Assembly: GCA_937915145.1 (NCBI GenBank)
Contig: CALDNT010000037.1
Coordinates: 90,016-154,015 of the forward strand
DNA length: 64,000 nucleotides
Source: an uncultured Reyranella sp.
Lineage (GTDB): Bacteria > Pseudomonadota > Alphaproteobacteria > Reyranellales > Reyranellaceae
Reading direction: 5' to 3'
Under the pieces are notes generated by a model. It was not told where the DNA came from and searched no databases. It saw nothing but the letters and a program-made list of their open reading frames with translations. Numbering within the stretch: the first letter of the stretch is position 1; every line of letters begins with the position of its first letter. Shown piece after piece: positions 20,789 through 64,000 of this stretch. The position numbers and the translations under genes are program-made.

Positions 20789-22729
20789 TCAGGGCGCTGA
20801 ATCGACGAGCTTTCCGTCTTCCCACAAGCCGGCACGCACCTGGCCGTCGACACCAGTGACCTGACCGTAGCCTTGCCGCCGGTTGCCGCGAAAGCCGCCT
20901 TCGTAGCGTTCGCCGTCACCGAGCGTTTCGACCCCTGGGCCATCCAGCATGTCGGCATGGAATTCACCGGACTGCACGAGGCTGGGCTTAGCCAGCGTAC
21001 GACGAACGCCCAAGCCTTCCAGACGCCCCGCGACGAAGTTTCCTTCGGCGCGTTCGATGCCCGGCCTCTCACGAACACCGAGCCCCGTCGACTGGCCAGC
21101 GCGCCATTGTCCAGTGTAGCGCGTATCGTTACCCAGCCGCACGATGCCAAGACCGTTCAGCTGATCGGCATCCCAGTCCCCCGCCTGACGCTCGCCGTTG
21201 GTCAGATCGGCAACACCAAGACCCTGGCGTTTGCCGGCCACGACCTGGCCGACATAGCTGGCGCCGCCATCGTACGATAGCCGCTCTACGTTCTCGAGGG
21301 CGGGGCTGGCAGCGCGGGCCGCCACAATGCGCGCCTCGCCCGCCATCGACCGCGCGGCCTTGGACGCCTCGTCGGCACGATCGAGCACCGCACGTGCCTC
21401 GGACGCCGAGCGCTGGGCCTGGTCCATCAACGCTTTCTGCGCCGAACGATCCGGAGAAGGTGGTTGCGTCGGCGCCGCGGCCGGCGAAGTCGCGGCAGGA
21501 GCGACAGACGGCCCGGCGGGCAACGAAGGCGATGGCGATGGCGAAGCCGGCGACTGTGTCACGACCGGAATCGGCGGTGCCTCAGCCGCGGGGCGATCCG
21601 GCGGCGGGGCGACGGCAAATACGTCGCGTAGTTCCGGCTGAATTCGCCAAAGCGCCACGGCCACAACGGCAAGCAGCGCGACGATCGCCCAGAGTCCTGC
21701 CCAAGATCGCCGTGAGCGCGGCGGTGGTGGTGGCGACGGCAGTGGCACAGACGAAACGGGCTTGCCGCTTTCACGGCGAACACCACCGAGGCGTGGTGCA
21801 GCGGTCGCACCCGGCAACCGCTGAGTCAGCGCATCATCGGCCTGCGGCAGCGGGGCGCCAAACATGACACTCCAGTCGGCGACGGTCTGTGGTCGCTGAT
21901 CCGGCGCGAACGCAAGCCCACGGTCAATGGCAACGAGCAGTGTCTGATCGAAGCGATCCGCCTGCGTCACTGCCAGGGGTCGATACGGATCGGCGCCGAC
22001 CCGGCTCACCGCCTCCGGCGGCGGGATGCCGGCGACAGCGTGATGCAAGACCGCCGCAGCGGAATAGATGTCGCTCCACGGACCCTGCTTGCCGTCGAGG
22101 GCGTACTGCTCGATGGGCGCGTACTGCGGCGTCAGAATGCTGGTCAGGGTTCGCGTGCGCCCCCCCATGGCCTGACGTGCCGCACCGAAGTCGATGAGGA
22201 CCGGTACGCCGTCATGCCTGACGATGATGTTCGATGGCTTGATGTCACGGTGAAGAAAACCTTGAGCGTGCACGGCGCGCAGCCCACTCAACAGCCCCTC
22301 GGCAAGGCGGGTCACTTCGTCAGGCTGCAACCGGCGCTTCGGCTCCCGTAGTAGCTGCGCTACGCTGCGGCCGTCTTCGAACTCCATGACTGTGTAGGCG
22401 GTGCTGTGGGCCTCGAAGTAGCGGAGCACCGGGACGATGTGGGCGTGACGAAACCGCGCCAAGGCGCGGGCTTCGTCGAGAAACCGTTCCCGGCCCCAGA
22501 CGAAATCATCGGCAAAGCGCGCACCGCGCGATACCACCTCGCCATCCGGCCGTCGGACGGCGAACTCAACCGGGAAGTACTCCTTGATGGCTACGAATTT
22601 GGTGAGCTGGGTGTCGAAGGCACGATAGGTGATACCGAATCCACCGTGCCCGATGATTGCATCGAGCCGATAGTCGCCGAGCCGCGTTCCGAGCGGCAGG
22701 GCCTGATCGTTTTCATGTGACATGGGCAC
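20789..22729 (-). CDS. Ser/Thr protein kinase with TM helix and C-terminal MORN repeats
   Basis: Kinase motifs IGHGGFGITYRAFD, FLHRDIKPSNIIV, LIDFGAARQ, QYAPIEQY; TM AGLWAIVALLAVVAVALW; YVGQVVAGKRQGLGVADL..., YTGQWRAGQSTGLGV..., YEGGFRGNRRQGYGQV. Start 22729 or 22720. Confidence 0.93.
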   Translation of the reverse strand: MPMSHENDQALPLGTRLGDYRLDAIIGHGGFGITYRAFDTQLTKFVAIKEYFPVEFAVRRPDGEVVSRGARFADDFVWGRERFLDEARALARFRHAHIVPVLRYFEAHSTAYTVMEFEDGRSVAQLLREPKRRLQPDEVTRLAEGLLSGLRAVHAQGFLHRDIKPSNIIVRHDGVPVLIDFGAARQAMGGRTRTLTSILTPQYAPIEQYALDGKQGPWSDIYSAAAVLHHAVAGIPPPEAVSRVGADPYRPLAVTQADRFDQTLLVAIDRGLAFAPDQRPQTVADWSVMFGAPLPQADDALTQRLPGATAAPRLGGVRRESGKPVSSVPLPSPPPPPRSRRSWAGLWAIVALLAVVAVALWRIQPELRDVFAVAPPPDRPAAEAPPIPVVTQSPASPSPSPSLPAGPSVAPAATSPAAAPTQPPSPDRSAQKALMDQAQRSASEARAVLDRADEASKAARSMAGEARIVAARAASPALENVERLSYDGGASYVGQVVAGKRQGLGVADLTNGERQAGDWDADQLNGLGIVRLGNDTRYTGQWRAGQSTGLGVRERPGIERAEGNFVAGRLEGLGVRRTLAKPSLVQSGEFHADMLDGPGVETLGDGERYEGGFRGNRRQGYGQVTGVDGQVRAGLWEDGKLVDSAP

Positions 22730-62309: not shown

Positions 62310-63659
62310 TCACAAGAGCGCGCAGGTTCGGAAGCCGGCCAGGACGTCGTTGCGGTCCGGCGTAAAGAAATTGCGATAGGCCGGGCGGGCAATGCGCGCG
62401 CTGGTCGCCCAACAACCGCCGCGCAGGACCTTGCGCGTACCGAACCAGGGCTGCGAATAGTCCTTGTAGGGATCGGCGGCAAAGCCCGCGAAGGGCAGGA
62501 AATCCGACGCGGTCCATTCCCAGACATTGCCGATCATCTGCCGGCAGCCGAAGGCGCTATCGCCATCGGCACAGGCCGCAACATCGATCGGCCCGTCGAA
62601 GGCATGGTCGAGATTGGCATGGGACGATGTGGGCGGCGCCTCGCCCCACGGCCATCGCCTGCGCCCCTCTGCAAGCCGGGTGCCGTCCGGCGACGGTGAG
62701 CCAACCGCCGCGGCTTCCCATTCGGCTTCGCTCGGCAGGCGCCGCCCGGCCCATCGGCACCACGCCTCGGCCTCGAACCAGGTGACGAACACGACCGGCG
62801 CATGCGGTGCCAGCTCTTCGGTCGCGCGATAGCGCCGAACGCTCCAGACGCCGTCGCGCTTGGGCAACCAGTAGACGGGACGTTGGGCGTCGCGGCCCTC
62901 CTCGCGGCCCCCGTCCCGACCTTGCCGCCACGCCCATCCGGCGTCGCTCCAGAATTCCCGCATGCCGTAGCCGCCGGCCTCGACGAAGGCCGCAAACTCG
63001 GCATTGGTGACGGGAGCGCGAGCGATGCGGAAGGCCGCCAACGCCGTCTCGTGCGCCCATTTTTCGTTGTCGAAGACGAAATCACCGGCGGCGGTCGACC
63101 CCAGCCGCCACGTTCCGCCCGGCACGGCGACATCGCCGGGCAGGTCGCCGGCGCCAGGTCGCCTGGTGTTGCCCAACCCCTGCGGCGACGCAAAGGACAA
63201 TGTCTGGCGTGAGTAGGTGAGCGCCTCGATATGCATGTCCTCATGCCGGATCGCGAGTTCGTAGAAATATAGGACCTCATCGTCGGGCGAGCCGCCCAGC
63301 AGCTCCTCCTGGCGCGCCAGCACATCGGCCATGTAACCGAAGGTACCGGCGCGATCCGGCAGGTCGAGCTGCCAGCGCGTGGCATGCGGCACGGCGCTCG
63401 AATCCCACAGCCGGTCGCTTCGCTCGATCAGCGGCGCATGGCCGTGGCTGTGGCGCAGCGTCCAGTACTCGTGAAACCAGCCGACATGGCCGATCTCCCA
63501 GAGCACGGGATTGACGATGTCCAGTCGCGGGCCCATCAATTCCTGCAATGACAGATCTTCCGTCAAACGCCGGGTGCGATGACGGGCCTCGCGCAGTTGC
63601 GCCACGAGTTCGGCAGCGGATGCACCGCTGGTCGGTCGGTGCGAATGGGTGTGGTCCAT
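62310..63659 (-). CDS. senA: EgtB-like nonheme iron enzyme (DinB + FGE/SUMF1 domains), probable selenoneine synthase SenA
   Basis: RLDIVNPVLWEIGHVGWFHEYWTLRH; IRHEDMHIEALTY; C-terminal DPYKDYSQPWFGTRKVLRGGCWATSARIARPAYRNFFTPDRNDVLAGFRT; divergent partner is a SenB-like glycosyltransferase. Confidence 0.75.
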   Translation of the reverse strand: MDHTHSHRPTSGASAAELVAQLREARHRTRRLTEDLSLQELMGPRLDIVNPVLWEIGHVGWFHEYWTLRHSHGHAPLIERSDRLWDSSAVPHATRWQLDLPDRAGTFGYMADVLARQEELLGGSPDDEVLYFYELAIRHEDMHIEALTYSRQTLSFASPQGLGNTRRPGAGDLPGDVAVPGGTWRLGSTAAGDFVFDNEKWAHETALAAFRIARAPVTNAEFAAFVEAGGYGMREFWSDAGWAWRQGRDGGREEGRDAQRPVYWLPKRDGVWSVRRYRATEELAPHAPVVFVTWFEAEAWCRWAGRRLPSEAEWEAAAVGSPSPDGTRLAEGRRRWPWGEAPPTSSHANLDHAFDGPIDVAACADGDSAFGCRQMIGNVWEWTASDFLPFAGFAADPYKDYSQPWFGTRKVLRGGCWATSARIARPAYRNFFTPDRNDVLAGFRTCALL

Positions 63660-64000
63660 GAGGATCGTGCTTATCACACCCGAGGGGCCGACCTCACGCA
63701 CCGGCAACCGCATCGCCGCCTCGCGCTGGGCGCGCATCCTGCGCGGTCTCGGCCATCGCGTGCGGATCGCGGCCGACTATGACGGGCATCCCGCCGATCT
63801 GATGGTGGCCGTCCATGCCTGGCGGAGCAGCGGCGCGATCGAGAAGTTCAAGGCGAAATTCCCTGGGCGCCCGGTGATCCTGCAGCTCAGCGGCACCGAT
63901 ATTTATCACTATATCAACAGCGACCCGGCGCCGACGCTGCGCTCGATGACGTTGGCTGACCGTCTGGTGGCACTGAACGACCTCGCATGGCGCGTCGTCC
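63658..64000 (+). CDS. senB: SenB-like glycosyltransferase (selenosugar synthase candidate), truncated by window end
   Basis: MRIVLITPEGPTSRTGNRIAASRWARILRGLGHRVRIAADYDGHPADLMVAVHAWRSSGAIEKFKAKFPGRPVILQLSGTDIYHYI...; GT-B N-terminus, next to senA-like gene. Confidence 0.72.
   Translation, partial: MRIVLITPEGPTSRTGNRIAASRWARILRGLGHRVRIAADYDGHPADLMVAVHAWRSSGAIEKFKAKFPGRPVILQLSGTDIYHYINSDPAPTLRSMTLADRLVALNDLAWRVV

Follow-up and report, generated by a model that had tools for sequence, protein, structure and literature searches.

Organization of the locus

The analyzed stretch of DNA (hereafter, the window; 64,000 nucleotides) spans bases 90016–154015 of contig C37 in the 4.77-Mb draft genome of an uncultured Reyranella sp. 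At the end of the window, two genes, identified below as senA (minus strand) and senB (plus strand), lie head-to-head with overlapping start codons (Table 1). A preliminary description had placed a DinB–FGE protein here facing the N-terminus of a GT-B glycosyltransferase, and both were present on the strands described, with the minus-strand protein matching Pfam DinB_2 and FGE-sulfatase domains and the plus-strand ATG at 63658. The senA ATG at 63659 was chosen to fit the relatives, and the open frame runs upstream to 63737. Contig C37, 154,015 bases long, stops exactly where the window does, which means that senB is cut by the assembly and not just by the window. The rest of senB was found at the extreme end of another contig, C308; if the two contig ends abut, they would join senB in frame, suggesting an assembly break.

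Table 1. Positions of the predicted selenoneine genes and associated features (window coordinates unless a contig is given)
Feature	Position	Strand	Evidence
senA, predicted selenoneine synthase, 449 aa	62310..63659	-	NF041186, TIGR04373, tree, residues
senB, predicted selenosugar synthase (Se-glycosyltransferase), first 114 codons	63658..64000	+	TIGR04348, solved SenB structures, residues
senB remainder	G000:C308:21855-22448	-	TIGR04348 positions 113-309
CATG shared by senA ATG and senB ATG	63657..63660	.	sequence and 36/36 loci
Putative senA leader signals, in senB codons 2-14	63661..63698	-	fixed rare codons, AAGGA in relatives; function inferred

Identity of the EgtB-like protein

The minus-strand protein scored 489.8 bits with the NCBIfam SenA model NF041186 (cut-off 420; E = 7e-147) and 308.5 bits with the EgtB model TIGR03440, below the cut-off of 360. 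The pattern was reversed for the other EgtB of the genome, which scored 545 bits with the EgtB model and 359 with the SenA model. When controls were scored with the SenA model, Variovorax SenA reached 512 bits, and OvsA, at 435 bits, also exceeded the cut-off of 420, so this model alone cannot tell SenA from OvsA. The two were separated by TIGR04373, a C-terminal active-site signature of EgtB-related proteins (cut-off 71), with which the window protein scored 95.9 bits and Variovorax SenA 93.6, whereas OvsA scored 56.7. The C-terminal YKDYSQPWFGTRKVLRG of the window protein agrees with Variovorax SenA, and the aligned signature positions read DPYKDYSQPWFGTRKVLRGGCWATS in the window protein, HPYRDYSAPWFGTRRVLRGACHATS in Variovorax SenA, and DMYPFYSTLQFATHKTTKGGGCAAS in OvsA. 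The motif DYS.PWFGTR.VLRG is common to the window protein and SenA, whereas OvsA has YSTLQFATHKTTKG at this place. The three iron-binding histidines are retained. The window protein resembles SenA of Variovorax paradoxus (PDB 8k5i, 8ryz; NF041186) in passing the family model, in its iron-binding histidines, and in its C-terminal signature, although the identity is about 47% or less and the segment at about residues 323–376 is absent from, or much diverged in, the 8k5i chain.

A maximum-likelihood tree was constructed from 63 proteins, including senB-linked proteins, SenA, OvsA, and EgtB. A branch with 100/99 support parted EgtB from the senB-linked proteins, SenA, and OvsA. The window protein fell within the Reyranella set, where its nearest rows were other senB-linked Reyranella proteins, and its position relative to the long SenA_8k5i branch was weakly supported (92/85 and 82/34). 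OvsA grouped with gammaproteobacterial rows (96/99), apart from Reyranella; the exact placing of both SenA 8k5i and OvsA is uncertain because their branches are long. When the Reyranella type and all EgtB proteins were constrained to form a clade, the tree was 27 log units worse, a difference that does not by itself reject such a clade (AU test, p = 0.074). As this comparison asks just whether Reyranella could be the deepest SenA branch, it was not used as evidence.

It is very unlikely that the window protein is an OvsA-type selenoxide synthase, an enzyme of the ovoselenol pathway that would modify histidine at a different carbon of the ring. Of the solved structures, OvsA (8ux5) was matched best over the full length (313 bits), and it also passes the SenA model, but the TIGR04373 scores and the signature motif place the window protein with Variovorax SenA, and the tree places OvsA with the gammaproteobacterial rows. 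Forcing OvsA and Reyranella into one clade was disfavored by the AU test (p = 0.037), and egtD clusters with senA in four of the compared loci (L103, L108, L127, and L136), which also argues against an enzyme of this type.

Identity and residues of the glycosyltransferase

The part of the plus-strand protein in the window matched positions 1–106 of TIGR04348 (E = 1e-36). Because the gene is divided between contigs, the two pieces scored 126 and 240 bits, each below the 300-bit cut-off; intact orthologues in the genus scored 382–400 bits with this model (397 bits for full-length relatives). The window part also resembles the solved SenB structures 8jjn, 8fbx, and 8k5u, and the identity to Variovorax SenB is 38% over 312 residues. 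Residues N20, H58, R61, T85, R155, K158, E231, and E239 are kept throughout the 80 loci compared, as well as in this genome; the roles assigned here to the catalytic K158, the selenophosphate pocket, and E231/E239 follow the work on the Variovorax enzyme (PMC10891094). Among the selenophosphate-pocket residues (N20, H58, R61, T83, T85, and R155), only T83 is changed, being Ser in this genome. The resemblance to SenB that had been proposed from the N-terminus was supported by the matches of the two pieces to TIGR04348, by the solved structures, and by the conserved key residues over both pieces, and on this basis the plus-strand gene is identified as senB.

The differences from Variovorax SenB lie in T83S and in the sugar-donor region, where T23, one of three donor-contact residues, and the EGGAHV motif are both changed (T23A and EGGANV). 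Of the 35 Reyranella-type loci, 34 have Ala at position 23, and of the 45 others, 44 have Thr; Asn replaces H235, giving EGGANV, in 79 of the 80 loci. In Variovorax SenB, N20, T23, and E231 govern the choice of donor, and H235 contacts C-4' (PMC10891094). These substitutions in the sugar pocket raise the alternative that selenophosphate and hercynine are used but a different selenium compound is made. We regard this as highly improbable: the catalytic residues of SenB are retained, and SenA removes the sugar in the published pathway, so a changed donor need not alter the product. The retention of these residues across 80 alpha-, beta-, and gammaproteobacterial loci offers a wider set of enzymes in which to examine sugar-donor choice (T23A, H235N).

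Gene order in related genomes

Gene order was compared across the 80 loci, comprising 35 of the Reyranella type and 45 others. Both genes are also present in the cultured R. soli NBRC 108950 (L084). senA is adjacent to and divergent from senB in 35/35 Reyranella-type loci and in 32/45 of the others, as in the proteobacterial senABC clusters. Unlike those clusters, the Reyranella locus has no adjacent SelD/SenC, the SelD being on another contig, and its start codons overlap. SelD, mostly of the fused kind, occurs near senA/senB in 34 of the 45 other loci, as against one of the 35 Reyranella-type loci; this one (L091) belongs to a sister lineage, and the count among the Reyranella loci themselves is 0/34. 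On the next branch out, a locus whose SenA falls beside the Reyranella type (L103; 100/99) has senA, senB, a fused SelD, and egtD together. No conserved neighbors other than senA and senB were found within the genus.

The preliminary description had also expected a selD-like senC beyond 64000. The contig ends there, no selD was found in the window or on C308, where senB continues, and the single SelD of the genome is encoded on contig C71, where it follows a pyridine-nucleotide-disulfide oxidoreductase domain in a fusion protein. The forecast, apt for many of the other genomes, does not hold here.

On C308, senB is followed by an ArsR–rhodanese gene, an AraC-type regulator, and others. The ArsR–rhodanese fusion gene (L008, G000:C308, about 21169–21843) runs convergently towards the senB 3' end, and about 11 of the compared loci have a gene of this kind after senB.

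Predicted supply of hercynine and selenophosphate

An ordinary egtB and egtD are paired on contig C24, so hercynine can be made in this organism. The proposal that the window gene is senA rather than egtB is borne out by the family scores with their controls, the signature residues, the separate egtB–egtD pair, and the tree, in which the protein sides with the senB-linked SenA proteins and away from EgtB; the minus-strand gene is accordingly assigned, from its sequence and context, as senA. It is extremely improbable that it encodes an ordinary ergothioneine sulfoxide synthase (EgtB) beside an unrelated glycosyltransferase, since the shared fold family, the 308 bits with the EgtB model, and the egtD in the genome are set against a score below the EgtB cut-off and above that of SenA, a true EgtB (545 bits) on C24, the 100/99 split, and linkage to senB across dozens of genomes. 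EgtB, OvsA, and the window protein are all DinB–FGE iron enzymes of the same superfamily, but the family scores, TIGR04373, the tree, the residues, and, for OvsA, the AU test set the window protein apart, and both identities were set aside.

A survey of 37 Reyranella genomes identified senB in 21 (one split), SelD in 36, selA in 36, and egtD in 34, whereas selU (TIGR03167) was found in 0/37. Of the 21 genomes with senB, 20 contain egtD. SelD and selA are near-universal in the genus, with or without senB, and there is generally one SelD per genome. A SelD dedicated to selenoneine was therefore rejected. As SelD is not confined to the senB-bearing genomes and selA is present, SelD probably also serves selenocysteine synthesis, and this gene content suggests that selenophosphate is probably shared between the selenoneine and selenocysteine routes. 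A locus without senC in a genus that has selA would make it possible to ask how cells apportion selenophosphate to selenocysteine on the one hand and to a small molecule on the other.

The Reyranella SelD proteins fell into score classes of about 430, about 375, and about 290 bits, the last mostly representing a long fused frame; these differing classes suggest replacement between lineages.

Overlapping start codons

The ATG of senA (the reverse complement of 63657–63659) and that of senB (63658–63660) have two bases in common, forming the CATG, which occurs at the identical place in 36/36 Reyranella-type loci. Between its ATG and the conserved RPTSG, senA varies in length by whole codons. Of the 193 senB sites assessed, only codons 5 and 7 showed fixation of a rare codon: codon 5 is CTT in 34/34 (usage 6%) and codon 7 is ACA in 32/34 (usage 9%). 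On the other strand, these codons are directly upstream of senA. The ribosome-site-like sequence AAGGA occurs within senB codons, 8 nt before the senA ATG, in 30 of the 36 loci, and the window has AAGCA. The CATG overlap in every locus and the fixed rare codons point to leader signals of senA within senB, and the simplest reading is that these signals sit inside the senB coding sequence. A GTG six codons upstream of the senA ATG is conserved in 36/36, so senA may have a longer start.

Proposed pathway

Selenoneine genes have been studied mostly in betaproteobacteria. We conclude with high confidence that the window carries part of a two-gene selenoneine biosynthesis locus of a Reyranella species, with an unlinked SelD, and this gene pair very probably allows the bacterium to build the selenium antioxidant selenoneine. 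In the proposed scheme, the lone fused SelD (C71) would supply selenophosphate, from which SenB would transfer selenium to a UDP-sugar, yielding a selenosugar. SenA, an iron-dependent relative of EgtB, would then couple the selenosugar to hercynine supplied by EgtD (C24) in an O2-using reaction, the product of which would give selenoneine. The identity of the genes, the conservation of their catalytic residues, the content of the genome, and the order of the genes were shown here, whereas the reactions of SenA and SenB are those expected from published work on the Variovorax enzymes. The pathway is already known, and the Reyranella locus is a further instance of it, with senC unlinked and an unusual overlap of start codons. 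Within the literature collection searched, ovoselenol and Reyranella together with selenoneine returned nothing useful.

The chances seem evenly balanced for a fuller model, in which Reyranella makes selenoneine without a dedicated SenC, one SelD being shared with selenocysteine synthesis, and senA and senB are expressed from nose-to-nose signals in each other's coding ends, which would bind the pair to one another where their start codons overlap.

Variant loci

Six alphaproteobacterial loci (L104, L107, L116, L118, L122, and L126) contain senB without an adjacent senA. Their neighboring genes encode an amidohydrolase, a CO-dehydrogenase-like molybdenum hydroxylase, and an AllG-like protein, followed by a fused SelD, and a putative selenate ABC transporter (TIGR04553) is annotated in the neighborhood of L116. 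A senA-type gene occurs elsewhere in all six genomes and scores over the cut-off in five. In two Reyranella genomes, senA is broken or shortened (110 and 192 residues) beside an intact senB (L035/G025:C8 and L036/L088, G004:C38). The senA of G025 has an internal stop (TAG), and the short genes in G025 and G004 reflect either decay or sequencing error.
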